DNA of 38,841 nucleotides from positions 1 to 38,841 of the IMG/VR virus record IMGVR_UViG_3300049442_000098, one strand, 5' to 3'. The translations under genes and the position numbers were made by a program. Of the stretch, positions 13,774-30,779 are shown one piece after another. This DNA is from a virus. The notes under the pieces were generated by a model that worked only from the letters and a program-made list of their open reading frames with translations, had not been told where the DNA came from and did no database searches. Numbering within the stretch: position 1 is the first letter of the stretch; the number at the start of each line of letters is the position of its first letter.

Positions 13774-16700
13774 CAGCCGGGCTCCTTCTGGATGATCAAC
13801 ACGGAACGGTTCAGCCAGTTGAAGGCAGGCTTTCCGGCGGACGCGACGTGCCCGGCGCCGCCACCGGCGTGCGCGCGGTGGTGCGGGTTGATCTCGATAC
13901 CGTCGAGGCCCTTCGCGGCACCCCAGCGCCCGGGATCCCAGAACGTCGACAGTTCGTAGCCCGAAGACCCCTTCGCCTTCGAGGTGCGCGAGGAGTTGGC
14001 CTGCGCCTCCTTCTCGACCTTGTCGTACTTCTCCATGACGGCGGACTTCGGGATGAGCATCCGCACGATGGAACCCTTGGTGCGGTCCGAGTACTGCTCG
14101 GCGACCCGCTTCTGGGTGGCCAGGTAGTAGCCGTTGCCGAAGATGCCGGTGCCGTAGTACGCCGGGCCGGACCGCATCTCCTCGTTGATGTCGGCGGCGG
14201 TCTTGCCGCCGGAGCTGCCCCGGCCGCGCGGGGACCAGCCGCCGCCCGCGCCGGTCACACCACGCCACGCCTCGATATAGTCGCCGGTCGCCAGGAGCCG
14301 GTCGATCTCCGACTTCGAGACGACGGTCGGGGTGTCGTCGAATCCCTGCTGGGCGCCGATCGCGGCGAGGCGGCCGTCGGCGGTCTTGCCGTCGAACAGC
14401 TTCCGATCGTTCTTGATCTTCTGCCGCTGCGCGTCGATGTCGGCCTTCGAGCCGACCAGGTTCTTGCCGGTCGACTTCTTGTGCGGGTGCGGCCAGGCGT
14501 TGAACGAGGCGGGCGCCTGACGGCCGCCGGGCGGCAGCGAGAGGCGGCCCAGTCGCTTCGAGACCGGGCCGGGCCGGGCGATCTGGCCCAGCTTCTGCCC
14601 CCCGGCTGCCGGGAACAGCGACATGACGTTCTGCTCCAGCTTGCCGCCCGCGAGCGGGGCGAGGAGCTTGCCGGAGGTGTCGAGGGCCTTGATCTCCGAC
14701 TCGGTCATCCACTTGGCGTCGGAGGTTTCCTGCCGGGCGTGGTGCGTCGACAGGTCCGGCTTGAGCATCTTCGGGACCTGCGCGGCGATCGACACGTATT
14801 TCCAGGTGGTGCCGGGGATGGCGTTGGTGTGCTCGCCGTGGATCGCCGCCGACGCCAGGTCGGAGTCCTTGAAGCCCAGTTCCTCAATGACCTCGCGGGC
14901 GCCGCCCTGGTGGAACGTCTCCTTCTCGTCGATGGCGCCGCCGGGGAACTGCCACTTGCCGGGGTCGGAGATTCCGGGTCCGCGCTGGACCATCAGGTAG
15001 CGCTTCTCGCCGGTGCCCGGGTCCTGGTGCATGAGCAGCAGTCCGGCCGCGCCGTACTTGCCCCAGACGCTCTTGCCGCCGGGAGTGGAGATCCAGCCGT
15101 CGCCGCCCTTGCCCTTGTTGGTGGCCTGCACGAGGGTGCCGACGACCGGGGTGGGATAGCGGACCTGCCCGGGGACGGAGTTCGCCGGGGGGATGATCGC
15201 CGGGTTGCCGGGGGTCTGCCCGGCGGGGGTTCCGGGCGGGGTGAACCGGTCGATGAGCTTGCCCGCCTTGGTGGCGGATGGCCCCTTCGCGGTCGTCTGG
15301 ATGAACGACAGGTCGGACAGGAGGTGCTGCTGCTCCTGGACGTTCAGGTTGTTGAAGTCGCCGCCGCGCAGCCCGCCGTAGGTGGACAGCTGGTGGGCCA
15401 TCGTGTGCGACTTCGGGTGGACGCCGTAGATGGTGTCGAGGGCGTCCTGCACGTGCTGCGGCACGTTCGGCTGCACGGACGTCGGCACCGTCCCCGACGG
15501 CAGGTTCGAGACGACCGGCGCCGGGTGGAACTTGGCGGTCATCACCTGCCGGGGGGAAGCGGGCAGGTTGTTGATCCGCTCGTCGATGGCCTCGCGGAAG
15601 GTCGGCGACAGGGCGTCGTAGTCGGCCTTGCTGAGGTTGTGGAAGGCGAGGGCCGCAGACGGGTCGGAGTATCCGGCGGTCGGGTGCGGGTCGGCGGCCT
15701 GGACGGCGGACACCTGGTTGGGGGTGAGGGTGACCTGGCTGTTCAGCTTGAGCAGGACGTCCTTGTTCATCGCCGCGTCGTAGCGGGTCTGCAACGGCAA
15801 CGACGAGTCGTTTTCGATCTTGCCCAGGTCGTCGAACACGGCCTTCTGCGTCGCGTCCGGCAGCCCCGTCAGCTTGATCGGGGTGACCTTGTTGTACGTC
15901 TCCACCCGGGACGCCGGGGCGACCAGGTCCCGGCCGTAGCTGGCGATGTCGGCGACGTTGCGCGACTCCCGGTCGGCGGGCACCACCCGGGAACCTTCCA
16001 GGTGTGCTGCCAGGGCGTTCGGGAACGCCGCGAGGGCGTTGTCCTGCGGCGACCACCAGCGTGACGGCCCGGCGTTCTCCAGCCGCTTCTGATAGCTGCG
16101 CAGGTCCGTCTTGATGGCTCCCCGGGCGAAGTCGGGCAGCGACCGGAAGGCGGCCGGGTCCATCTGGCGGTAGGCGTCGGCCTTCGCGGCCCCGGTACGG
16201 GCGTACTTGTCGGAGGCTGCCACGAGGGCGTCGCGGGTCGCACCGTCCAGAGGGCTGTCGCCTTCCAGCTCGCGCAGCGCCATCCATGTTCTGGTCTTCG
16301 CGTGGTTGTCGCTCTGCCCGGCCAGCCGCTTCCGGACGGTCTTCAAAACCAGGGTCTGCACGTCGCCCGGCAGTGCCCGGTACAAGTCGAGCCGGTCGCG
16401 GGGGATCTCCCCGCCATCCGCCATGTGGATGCCGAGGTAGTGGTTGACGACGTCGTTGCGGGTGGCTTCCGACCAGGGGCTTCCGGTGGGCACGCCCGGC
16501 TCGCCGCGCAGCCCGGTCCGCAGGATGTTTTCGCGCAGGTCACGGACGGCCTGCGCATGGATCGGGTCGAGGGCGTTCAGGTCGCTGTCGGAGGTGCGGA
16601 AGATCTGGCTGATGTCCGTCGAGCTGAGCCGGGGCGCAGGCTCCCAGTTGTGCTTCATCCCGGCGAGGGAGACGGGGTAATAGCCGGGGGCGCCGTAGGC

Positions 16701-25924: not shown

Positions 25925-26233
25925 TCAGGCCGTCAGCGTATCGAGGAACGCCAGCAGCGCGGCCTTCAGGCGGCCACCCCGATCCCCTCGACGGAAGATC
26001 GCACCCGGGATCCACGGGTGGTCATTGTCCAGCTCACGGCGGGCGTCAGCGACGACCTCCTCCAGCTCCGGATCGACGTCGACCTGGAAGACGGCGACGG
26101 GCCGCATCTCCAGGTCGAACGACCAGTGCTTCATCTTCTGCTCGCCAGCGAACGCCTGGTGGGCGATCATCCGGGCCGCAACGTCGGCGTAGTCGACACC
26201 GTCGGGCACCTCGAACATGACTGCCAGCTTCAC
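25925..26233 (-). CDS. Small hypothetical protein following the macro-domain gene
   Basis: 102 aa; GTG overlaps the macro-domain stop. A beta strand start (KLAVMFEVPDGVDYADVAAR) and acidic centre (AVFQVDVDPELEEVVADARR) suggest a compact alpha/beta fold. No recognised family. Coupled with the macro gene, so it may share its pathway. Confidence 0.65.
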   Translation of the reverse strand: MKLAVMFEVPDGVDYADVAARMIAHQAFAGEQKMKHWSFDLEMRPVAVFQVDVDPELEEVVADARRELDNDHPWIPGAIFRRGDRGGRLKAALLAFLDTLTA

Positions 26234-26784
26234 AGGCCCGGCCTTCCCGCGAGGATGGCCTTGGCCAGCGTGTAGGTGTGCGCGTCGAACGTGACCAGCT
26301 TGATGTCCCTGACGCTGGTCCGGGCGCCCTGGATGGCGGTGATGGCCTGGTGGATGGCGTCGCCGACCGGCCAGGCGTAGACGCCGGAGGAGATCAGCGG
26401 GAACGCGACGCTGCGGGCCTTCAGCCGGTCGGCGGCGGCCAGGGAGTTCGTGTAGCAGGCGCGCAGCAGGGCCGGATCGGGTTCCTTGCGGTAGTGCGGG
26501 CCGACGGTGTGGATGACGTACATGGCGGGGAGCTTGCCGCCGCCGGTGACGGCGGCCTCGCCGACGCACAGGCCGTGCGGGTAGATGGCGGCGCGCAGGC
26601 GTAGGCACTCTTCGAGCAGCTGCGGACCGGCCGCCTCGTGGATGGCGCCGTCAACGCCGCCGCCACCCAGCAGGGACGACTTGGCGGCGTTGACGATGGC
26701 GTCGACTTCCAGGGTGGTGATGTCGCCCCGCACGATCTCCAGGCGGGGGGAGCGGCGGAACCAGCTGCGGATACGGGAGAACAT
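26230..26784 (-). CDS. Macro-domain protein (ADP-ribose binding or hydrolase)
   Basis: 184 aa; GAAGGG before ATG. A full MacroD-like domain: EIVRGDITTLEVDAIVNAAK (about 16-35), SSLLGGGGVDGAIHEAAG (about 36-53), CVGEAAVTGGGKLP, VIHTVGP, CYTNSLAAADRLKARSVAFP and ISSGVYAWP. Macro domains bind ADP-ribose; MacroD types can remove it from protein or O-acetyl-ADP-ribose. Oddity: the usual NAAN is NAAK here, while the GGGGVDGAIH loop with its Asp is intact. It may reverse or shield ADP-ribosylation by the giant protein or the host. Confidence 0.85.
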   Translation of the reverse strand: MFSRIRSWFRRSPRLEIVRGDITTLEVDAIVNAAKSSLLGGGGVDGAIHEAAGPQLLEECLRLRAAIYPHGLCVGEAAVTGGGKLPAMYVIHTVGPHYRKEPDPALLRACYTNSLAAADRLKARSVAFPLISSGVYAWPVGDAIHQAITAIQGARTSVRDIKLVTFDAHTYTLAKAILAGRPGL

Positions 26785-27868: not shown

Positions 27869-27911
27869 GGAACACAGGTCAGGGGGCATGAGCCCAGGGC
27901 GCCTGACCTCG

Positions 27912-27983
27912 CTGCGGGGGCGGGGTCCGAACCCGCATCGTCGACTCCGGGGCCGACTGCTCTGCCTGTTGAGCTACCCCACA
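27912..27983 (-). tRNA. tRNA, Arg(CCG) or Pro(CGG) by alignment
   Basis: Acceptor TGTGGGG with CCCCGCA, TA, a D-arm GCTC/GAGC, T-stem GCGGG/CCCGC with loop TTCGGAC. The anticodon stem GTCGG/TCGAC closes an 8-base loop (CCCCGGAG) instead of seven, and U33 is absent; the variable region is short. The identity depends on which side the extra base is placed. Confidence 0.65.
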
Positions 27984-28159: not shown

Positions 28160-28171
28160 GTTGCGGTGTTG

Positions 28172-28253
28172 CGTCCCGAGCAGGGATCGAACCTGCTGTC
28201 CCCCGGAGGAAAGGAACGGCGGTAACTCCGGGAGCCTTGCACCAAGCCGGGAC
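28172..28253 (-). tRNA. tRNA-like gene with expanded anticodon loop
   Basis: Acceptor GTCCCGG/TCGGGAC and a normal T-arm (GCAGG, TTCGATC, CCTGC). A 7-bp stem CCCGGAG/CTCCGGG takes the place of the anticodon stem but closes a 17-base loop starting TTACC. The D-region (CTTGGTGCAAG) is compact. The amino acid cannot be assigned. Confidence 0.5.
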
Positions 28254-28261
28254 GCGGAACC

Positions 28262-28356: not shown

Positions 28357-28605
28357 TCAGGCGGTCCACGCCACCCTCGCGACGATCAGCCGCCCCGACA
28401 GGCGGGCATAGCGGGCGGCGAGACGGAACCTGCCCCGGGCGGCCGAGCGGACAGCGGCGACCATCGGGCAGCAGTCGCCGCCCTTGTGGTTGGTGCCGCC
28501 GCCGGTACCGCCGGACCGGTAGTGCGGCAGGGGGCCGTTCCCGGCGCCGCCGCCACCACGGTTCGGGGGGCGACCACCAGACGGGCGCGGCTTGCCCTTC
28601 GCCAT
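28357..28605 (-). CDS. CCPM-family small basic protein, copy 3
   Basis: 82 aa; ATG shares bases with the upstream TAA. Gly/Pro/Arg-rich start (GKPRPSGGRPPNRGGGG), then GGDCCPMVAAVRSAARGRFR and LAARYARLSGRLIVARVA. Same family as the two plus-strand genes at 10520-10953, but on the other strand and next to tRNAs. Confidence 0.7.
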   Translation of the reverse strand: MAKGKPRPSGGRPPNRGGGGAGNGPLPHYRSGGTGGGTNHKGGDCCPMVAAVRSAARGRFRLAARYARLSGRLIVARVAWTA

Positions 28606-29312
28606 TACTGCGCCACCTCATCCTGCGTGGCAGGCTCCGGCACGTCCGGGGTGAACGTGACGGTGCCGCCACCCAGCTCCCGGGCCGCCTTGGTGAGGTG
28701 CCGGGCGAAGTCCAGGAGCCGGTCGACAACCTCGGCGGAGTCGTGGCCGTCCCACTTCGGCGAGTGTTCCAGCACGGTGACCGCTTCGAAGCGGTCCCAG
28801 TCGGCCAGCGGGTAGTGGTAGCTGACCGTCCCGGCGGGCAGCTCCATCCCGACGATGAAGTAGCCCGCGAACATCGGGTCGTCTTCGGGGTGGTGCTGCT
28901 TGGAGCGCCACGAGTCCCCGCCGATCGCACCGATGGTCGCCAGGACGGCGGTCAGGGCGCAGCGGTGGTCGTACAGCTCCTGCATCGTGTGGTAGCCGTC
29001 GGACAGGGTGGGGATGTCGTCGTCCTGGACTGCCACGGTCGCCTCCTCGGGGGCGCCTTCACGGAAGAGGACGCCCTGGTTCTGTACCTCGTTGATGGCG
29101 TCGGTGATGCCCTGCTCGTCGAGGCCGCACTTGGCGAGGCCCTTGCGGACCTTCGTCAGGGTGTTCTCGTCGTAGACGGTGACGTCGGTGATGACGTTGT
29201 CGGCCCGCTCCAGGGCGGCGGCCTCGGGGGACACCAGCGGCAGCAGGAGTGCCTGCGAGGGGGCGGGCGCCTGGGCGTTGTCCCGTGGGGTGTACCCGGT
29301 CGGGTCGGTCAC
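28605..29312 (-). CDS. WDGH-motif phage protein
   Basis: 235 aa from a GTG overlapping the previous stop. A helical N-terminal half (RADNVITDVTVYDENTLTK) is followed by the conserved block YDHRCALTAVLA, SKQHHPEDDPMFAGYFIVGM, TVSYHYPLADWDRFE and SPKWDGHDSAEVVDRLLDFA (about 177-196). This block recurs in many phages with WDGH near its end; its biochemical role is not known. The acidic and aromatic residues hint at a small-molecule or nucleotide site. Confidence 0.75.
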   Translation of the reverse strand: MTDPTGYTPRDNAQAPAPSQALLLPLVSPEAAALERADNVITDVTVYDENTLTKVRKGLAKCGLDEQGITDAINEVQNQGVLFREGAPEEATVAVQDDDIPTLSDGYHTMQELYDHRCALTAVLATIGAIGGDSWRSKQHHPEDDPMFAGYFIVGMELPAGTVSYHYPLADWDRFEAVTVLEHSPKWDGHDSAEVVDRLLDFARHLTKAARELGGGTVTFTPDVPEPATQDEVAQ

Positions 29313-29488
29313 TTGTGGTCTCCAAACGGTGCGGCGAACCAGCCGTTCTTGGTTCCGGGACTGTTCGGCGGGCCGACTCGCATCCCACCTGCCTGCTGGG
29401 AGGTGTCGCAGCGGCGGCAGATGTGGATGCCGAAGGTCTTGCCGTCGAGCATCCACATCTCGAAGCCGCAGGAGCAGCGGGTGGGCAT
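29309..29488 (-). CDS. Small zinc-ribbon protein
   Basis: 59 aa; ATG overlaps the previous stop and the TGA overlaps the next GTG. CSCGFEMWMLDGKTFGIHIC and RRC give a C-x-C...C-x2-C zinc ribbon (residues 5-27), with a polar tail. Short coupled genes in this place are typical accessory genes. Confidence 0.65.
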   Translation of the reverse strand: MPTRCSCGFEMWMLDGKTFGIHICRRCDTSQQAGGMRVGPPNSPGTKNGWFAAPFGDHK

Positions 29489-29813: not shown

Positions 29814-29893
29814 TGCTGCGCGGGGATTCGAACCCCTCACCTTTCGGTCCCCTCTTGCGGAGGGGGACGGGTGTCCATCCCGTCTTGCGCAGC
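29814..29893 (-). tRNA. tRNA-like, Cys(GCA) by best fold
   Basis: Acceptor GCTGCGC/GCGCAGC with discriminator A, T-loop TTCGAAT, an anticodon stem CCCCT/AGGGG closing CCGCAAG (GCA). Oddities: C at position 33, a 6-bp D-type hairpin (GACGGG/CCCGTC) and an 11-base variable region with a GAAA tetraloop. A Ser(GGA) reading of the first hairpin was considered. Confidence 0.55.
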
Positions 29894-30049
29894 GGTACTA
29901 GGTCGTTCCGTGCTCCGCGTGTCGACCCGCTCGGCGTTTCCCGACCGTTTCCTGTTACCAGCCGGTTGCCTCCTTATCCGGCGCTGGCGAGCGGTCCCGC
30001 CTCAGGCATCCCGTCTTTCCGGGGCGTCAGCCCGTCTATCCAGGCTGTG

Positions 30050-30122
30050 TGCCCGGCCGTGGATTCGAACCACGATCCTCCAGCCCCCCGGGCTGGCGCT
30101 CGTCCATCGAGCCGTACCGGAC
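30050..30122 (-). tRNA. tRNA-Pro(GGG)
   Basis: Complete cloverleaf: acceptor GTCCGGT/GCCGGGC (with wobble), D-arm GCTC/GAGC, anticodon stem CCAGC/GCTGG around CCGGGGG, T-arm with TTCGAAT. C instead of U at position 33. Confidence 0.75.
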
Positions 30123-30152
30123 TTGCCGCCGCACGCCCCTCACCAGAGCTAA

Positions 30153-30165
30153 GGGAATCGAACCC
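30153..30165 (-). other. T-arm remnant of a tRNA-like gene
   Basis: GGGTTCGATTCCC, followed by TTAGCTC. A possible anticodon hairpin with loop TTCATGG (CAT, Met) lies upstream, but no 5' acceptor partner was found, so this may be a degenerate or rearranged tRNA. Confidence 0.4.
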
Positions 30166-30210
30166 GGCGTGCGACTTGCCTCGCCCGCACCATGAATACG
30201 GGGTCGGCCG

Positions 30211-30296
30211 AGGAGGGAGCAGGACTTGCACCTGCACCACCGGTTGGGGTGTCCCGGGGGGCCGGGAGACCGGTGTGCTGCTTACACCATCCCTCC
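30211..30296 (-). tRNA. tRNA-like, Gln-type body, 24-nt anticodon loop
   Basis: Acceptor GGAGGGA/TCCCTCC, D-arm GTGT/ACAC and T-stem GCAGG/CCTGC. The anticodon stem CCGGT/ACCGG is perfect but holds 24 bases including an inner CCCGG/CCGGG hairpin. The T-loop is TGCAAGT instead of TTCAAGT. Confidence 0.5.
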
Positions 30297-30420: not shown

Positions 30421-30458
30421 GTACAGCCTGCGTGCAAGCCATGAAGCACTTTCGGCTG

Positions 30459-30530
30459 TGGTGCTGGACGGATTCGCGCCGCCGACCTCCTGCCGTGAGG
30501 CAGGTGCTCTATCTGCTGAGCTACAGCACC
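30459..30530 (-). tRNA. tRNA-like with shortened anticodon loop
   Basis: Acceptor GGTGCTG/CAGCACC, D-arm GCTC/GAGC and T-stem are all regular. The anticodon arm is CCTGC, six bases, GCAGG (or a 6-bp stem with TCAC loop), one to three bases short. The T-loop starts CG instead of TT. The body resembles Ala/Val tRNAs. Confidence 0.55.
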
Positions 30531-30624
30531 CCCCGCTTGCTCATGGCGGGGGCGTTGGTTGGCGCCGGGCTGAGCAGCCGACCGAGCCCCTACAGGCTGG
30601 ACGACACCCGGCGTTCCTCTGCGT

Positions 30625-30779
30625 GGGTCACGGGGGGACTCGAACCGCCATCCCTACGTCCGTGCTCCCCGCCCGGTCACGCGCGCTTCCGGTTGGGGCC
30701 GTGTGGGGGCGTGCTCAAACACTGTCTTCCCGCCACACGGTGGACGTCGCTCTGCCTGTTGAGCTACGCGCCCCTGACC
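30625..30779 (-). tRNA. Interrupted tRNA-like gene with 80-nt anticodon insert
   Basis: The 5' half has a D-arm (GCTC, AACAGGCA, GAGC) and ACGTCC; the 3' half has GGACGT, then a T-arm with TTCGAGT, and CGTGACC pairing with GGTCAGG except one position. Between the two stem arms lie 80 bases (30662-30741) with two further hairpins. Extra bases also stand between acceptor and D-arm, and the T-stem has a C-C mismatch. Confidence 0.4.

Follow-up and report, generated by a model that had tools for sequence, protein, structure and literature searches.

Explanations of phage transfer RNA (tRNA) genes have for decades been divided chiefly between codon supply and resistance to anticodon nucleases. Phage tRNA genes with altered anticodon loops have been proposed to evade such nucleases (PMC10264068), and introns have been described in the tRNAs of Lak megaphages, in some cases with what may be a further tRNA inside (PMC6784885). 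The laboratory tRNA scaffold keeps the acceptor, T and D arms of a tRNA and exchanges the anticodon loop for a chosen RNA (PMC3753655). Here, we report a tRNA-like element with an 80-nucleotide (nt) insert in its anticodon arm, located in a 38,841-nt stretch of viral DNA (hereafter, the window; positions 1 to 38,841 of the incomplete IMG/VR record IMGVR_UViG_3300049442_000098), together with its counterparts in related phages. The architecture of these elements, a constant tRNA body whose anticodon end is an exchangeable folded domain, is identical to that of the laboratory scaffold; the scaffold is man-made and intended for RNA production, whereas the phage elements are natural, evolved counterparts of it. 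Comparison of the sequences indicates that the family is very probably characterized by conserved tRNA bodies whose anticodon ends are non-canonical, by folded inserts and by recombination between inserts and bodies.

The element under study and its parts are as follows.

30626-30773, minus strand: tRNA-like element (cloverleaf parts read from the sequence, ARAGORN, body finder, comparative structure)
30773-30767 with 30632-30626, minus strand: acceptor stem, GGGCGCG/CGTGACC
30764-30749, minus strand: D arm, GCTC-AACAGGCA-GAGC
30742-30747, minus strand: 5' strand of the anticodon stem, ACGTCC, pairing with GGACGT at 30661-30656; compensatory changes in the helix
30695-30740, minus strand: conserved alpha domain, helix CCGTGTGG/CCACACGG around CGGGAAGACAGTGTTTGAGCACGCCC, then CCCC
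30667-30698, minus strand: second hairpin of the anticodon-arm domain, CCCC..GGGG; interior and length differ among relatives
30656-30661, minus strand: 3' strand of the anticodon stem, GGACGT (sequence and compensatory changes)
30649-30633, minus strand: T arm, GGCGG-TTCGAGT-CCCCC

Read along the minus strand, the order is GGGCGCG, TA, GCTC, AACAGGCA, GAGC, G, ACGTCC, the 80 nt (30662-30741), GGACGT, AGGGAT, GGCGG, TTCGAGT, CCCCC and CGTGACC. The first-pass annotation of this locus had proposed that the anticodon stem is completed by pairing across the 80 nt, and this is exact to the base, with GGACGT at 30742-30747 and ACGTCC at 30656-30661 on the plus strand. The minimum-energy fold of the element as a whole contains both hairpins that it described in the insert, and comparison with three relatives supports them. 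The fold energy itself was unremarkable against shuffled sequences (z -0.65), so energy alone is no proof of structure; the proof is supplied by the comparison, in which the window element and the three relatives showed compensatory changes at 10 pairs of the anticodon and T arms, where 4.1 were expected from shuffling and none of 500 shuffles scored as high. On this comparative evidence, the anticodon arm is predicted to be replaced by a three-way-junction domain. The window copy is slightly imperfect owing to a single G-A mismatch in its acceptor stem.

Standard tRNA searches handle this element poorly. Default ARAGORN missed it and, with introns allowed, called a gene at 30623-30774, while the Rfam tRNA model (RF00005) reported three neighbours above cut-off and was silent on the element itself, presumably because of the 80-nt insert. 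At the Rfam gathering score tRNA matches alone were obtained and the weak matches included no group I intron, in agreement with the absence of a group I core noted earlier. Such genes are silently dropped or mislabelled by tRNA finders.

Our phage family comprised 28 records, the window included, found via the terminase or the insert. The terminase search returned 20 related records and an alignment-based search 27, most of the longer ones being 54-59 kb, and record L133 was added through DNA patterns. The tRNA-like genes are located downstream of the terminase across the family records, and the array of tRNA-like elements was found in every record studied; chance or a single artefact is ruled out by the many independent contigs. 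RF00005 gave matches above cut-off in all 18 phage records tested, with 2-7 matches each.

The anticodon ends were surveyed with a finder that scores the acceptor, D and T arms and leaves the anticodon arm unscored, replacing an earlier version that scored it; a loop of 7 nt with U33 was taken as canonical. Canonical loops were present in only 2 of 71 tRNA-like elements from 27 family records, leaving 69 without, compared with 334 of 408 normal-length genes of other phages under the same finder, in control viral contigs that had been chosen for holding at least one odd gene. The cloverleaf body (7-bp acceptor stem, D arm, T arm with a TTC loop) is therefore accompanied by no decoding arm in the usual sense of a 5-bp stem and a 7-nt loop with U33. 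Loops spanned from 4 nt to folded domains of more than 100 nt and U33 was mostly absent; the graded series of insertions described in the first pass is hence wider among the relatives, with 4-nt loops at one extreme and about 150 nt separating the D and T arms at the other. The likeness to the altered phage tRNAs of PMC10264068 lies in clustered cloverleaf genes with changes centred on the anticodon loop, and the difference is that those tRNAs retain a decoding anticodon. Near-total loss of decoding with the body retained excludes codon supply as the reason for keeping these genes and makes the alternatives directly testable; the elements probably do some job in infection other than ordinary codon reading.

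The tRNA-like bodies are conserved through compensatory change and are under selection. Across 42 distinct bodies, 97.5% of the paired cells held standard pairs, a figure inflated by the finder's own demand for pairing. Double changes are unaffected by that demand, and 151 double-change cells were counted in the body helices against 43.8 +/- 5.5 after shuffling, and every one of the seven acceptor pairs, together with most pairs of the T stem, took part in the compensation. All 26 family-2 elements (counted as elements, not as independent changes) combined D-loop AG with G55 (9) or GG with T55 (17) without exception, a co-change of D loop and T loop that corresponds to the predicted elbow contact of a folded tRNA. 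In six records (L155, L013, L021, L154, L015 and L008), the family-2 element has an insert of about 30-40 nt in the D loop, not in the anticodon arm.

The anticodon end, in turn, behaves as a module. The alpha domain has the form CCGTG...-CGGGARGACAGTGTYYGAGCACGCCC-...CACGG-CCCC...GGGG, and a structure model of it (R1) matched only the window, L133, L154 and L158, each time inside a tRNA-like body. Its first helix varies by compensation (TG/CA, AC/GT and GC/GC versions), and the four bodies bearing it share just 73-75% identity. Conversely, 13 records have a near-constant GGGGAGA body, whose anticodon region varies from 19 to 101 nt in length and takes many unrelated sequences. At least two further insert types are common to several records, one of about 145-150 nt with GATCA-loop hairpins and one with an extended 9-bp stem, both with compensatory changes. 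These patterns indicate that inserts and bodies have been recombined. The earlier view of a single tRNA-like gene, not two unrelated halves, is borne out. A relaxed alpha motif was found at nine more viral loci and these were rejected, the context being without an alpha helix or tRNA-like body. No support was obtained for an antisense or guide role, as the longest complementarity of the inserts to the phage's own locus was 10.3 nt against 10.6 nt for shuffled inserts.

On balance, we favour as the best explanation of the whole a non-decoding, tRNA-scaffolded RNA in which the exchanged domain would most likely be a decoy, an inhibitor or a ligand. The comparison shows that compensatory change preserves the acceptor stem, both the D and T arms and the elbow contact, and that any of several folded RNA domains, or a loop of non-standard size, stands in place of the anticodon arm. 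From general tRNA biology, the RNA would be expected to be matured and stabilised by host enzymes recognising the acceptor/T half (RNase P, CCA addition), a property exploited by the laboratory scaffold (PMC3753655). The exchanged domain would then be the working part, a decoy, inhibitor or uncleavable ligand aimed at a host protein, such as a defence nuclease, whose site of binding or cutting is the tRNA anticodon arm, and the diversity of domains may reflect an arms race. Of these steps the decoy is the least certain: that the domain binds a host factor acting on anticodon arms is conceivable but doubtful. Several points weigh against the explanation. Many of these RNAs may be tolerated, nothing more; the acceptor mismatch of the window copy does not favour it; known phage answers to anticodon nucleases retain decoding, whereas the family elements do not; and no host points to a target, relatives of the window terminase having been found in none of about 85,000 bacterial and archaeal genomes.

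The rival that survives best treats the tRNA-like folds as processing punctuation, at which RNase P and RNase Z cut free the structured RNAs lying between them while the unneeded anticodon arm drifts. The segments between elements are indeed conserved and structured, a 51-nt leader being one example. We nevertheless regard this as unlikely, as the inserts have compensatory changes of their own and recur across different bodies, unlike a freely drifting arm.

It is appreciably less likely that, as the first-pass annotation had supposed, a small intron interrupts a functional tRNA gene and is removed to give a normal tRNA. The halves of the anticodon stem do pair once the 80 nt are looped out, ARAGORN draws a tRNA-Ala(AGC) with a 73-nt intron, and other phages have short tRNA inserts whose removal does restore a normal arm. 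We removed every possible segment and required a 5-bp stem with a 7-nt U33 loop; no single-segment excision achieved this in the window element, and the canonical arm was restored in 1 of 31 long family elements, with 1.6 expected by shuffling. A near-identical, slightly looser test recovered such an arm in 58 of the 120 long tRNA genes examined from other phages, hence the test is able to detect introns. Splicing is also unable to mend the 5- and 6-nt loops of sister elements in the array, and no RtcB ligase was found in 18 phage records; a search for T4 Rnl1 gave no match, and neither did its controls. The insert-free counterpart that the annotation had suggested looking for was not encountered, as no decoding version without the insert was seen among the relatives. 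Lak tRNAs resemble the family elements in being phage tRNA genes with an insert inside the anticodon arm; in the family, by contrast, excision restores no such arm and an intron-free decoding version was not seen.

The survey also yielded a second, unrelated class of inserts of about 40-58 nt, mostly in AT-rich phage tRNA genes and near position 28-30 of the anticodon stem. A short hairpin is followed by A-C-A/T-G-C-A-A, and removal leaves a perfect 5-bp stem and a U33 loop. The class comprises 26 listed cases from 21 contigs, one or more of them doubtful as to type, and has the look of very short tRNA introns that form a family. The loci include, among others:

L029, 1293, minus strand
L037, 10274 and 10535, plus strand
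L083, 2120, plus strand
L100, 2435, plus strand
L104, 4000, minus strand
L111, 5, plus strand
L121, 2119, plus strand
L126, 4649 and 4862, plus strand
L131, 2843, minus strand

An apparent shortened second tRNA-like fold nested in a tRNA anticodon loop was seen at L042 (4219, plus), L051 (928, minus), L064 (3871, plus) and L111 (2123, plus), and these loci resemble the Lak phage case (PMC6784885).

Decay into pseudogenes with accumulated insertions and deletions is also very improbable. Imperfect bodies (the acceptor mismatch in the window, a lone 3' half near 30150-30200) and the lost anticodon loops would fit such decay; compensatory changes in all seven acceptor pairs, most T-stem pairs and the inserts, the D-loop/T-loop co-change and the presence of the array in every record studied do not. 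Least probable of all are unusual but translating tRNAs, i.e. frameshift suppressors or recoding tRNAs with 6- or 8-nt loops, for although a few elements have 8-nt loops like classical +1 suppressors, the loops run from 4 nt to folded domains of more than 100 nt, mostly without U33.

Natural non-decoding tRNA mimics are known, among them the bacterial Y RNA YrlA, a non-coding RNA that mimics a tRNA without decoding and has Ro60 as its partner. The family elements share with YrlA a tRNA-like, non-decoding module and differ in that their ends lie in a normal acceptor stem; a Ro60 (TROVE) domain was detected in none of 21 phage records, the incomplete window record among them, while a control genome was matched. 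tmRNA likewise has a tRNA half without an anticodon arm, whereas the D and T arms are complete in the family elements, and ARAGORN found no tmRNA in the window. In the open-access literature, a scope in which a subscription paper could be missed, we found no account of natural tRNA scaffolds that form a family, do not decode and carry exchangeable domains. We tentatively suggest an undescribed class of phage non-coding RNA, in which natural tRNA scaffolds carry a swappable, fast-diversifying domain at the anticodon end and the array is aimed at host proteins that handle or cut tRNAs.

The window element belongs to an array with the following further members.

30531-30581, minus strand: 51-nt leader with predicted pseudoknot (TGCTCA/TGAGCA and CCCCGC/GCGGGG), directly adjoining the family-2 element
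30458-30530, minus strand: tRNA-like element, family 2; 6-nt anticodon loop CTCACG, T loop CGCGAAT (ARAGORN, Rfam)
30210-30296, minus strand: tRNA-like element; 5-bp anticodon stem and 24-nt loop containing a small hairpin (Rfam, ARAGORN with introns)
30049-30122, minus strand: tRNA-like element; loop CCGGGGG, C at position 33 (ARAGORN)
29814-29893, minus strand: tRNA-like element; loop CCGCAAG, C33, long D stem, short variable-arm hairpin (weak support, ARAGORN at relaxed threshold)
28171-28255, minus strand: tRNA-like element; acceptor GCGTCCCG/CGGGACGC, 17-nt anticodon loop (drawn differently by ARAGORN, boundaries uncertain)
27911-27983, minus strand: tRNA-like element; 8-nt anticodon loop CCCCGGAG (ARAGORN, Rfam, body finder)

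The 17- and 24-nt loops that had been noticed in two neighbours are those at 28255-28171 and 30296-30210. The leader was matched at E<=0.1 in 27 of the 28 family records (the window and once each in 26 of the 27 others); it shows compensatory changes and adjoins the family-2 element in nearly all records. Among viral contigs, its core motif occurs in the family records and in one more contig, L189, of uncertain kinship. A hairpin-like conserved segment, GCCGAAAGTGCTTCRTGGCTTGCACGCAGGC, lies between tRNA-like elements in the window (30423-30459, minus strand), in L022 (about 13925-13965) and in L133 (about 678-712).

The alpha motif was absent from bacterial genomes, in which prophages and free-standing copies were looked for, and the GenBank phage terminases among the records listed had less than 40% identity to that of the window. 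Actinoplanes phage phiAsp2 was considered as a relative and rejected, with one protein-coding stretch in common and nothing more. High G+C content and scattered proteins resembling those of actinophages suggest an actinobacterial host, and the family consists of soil phages that probably infect actinobacteria. Part of the array in the window is flanked by genes for a WDGH-domain protein (28605-29456, minus strand) and a Macro-domain protein (26230-26784, minus strand), neighbours that make a link of the array to ADP-ribose possible.
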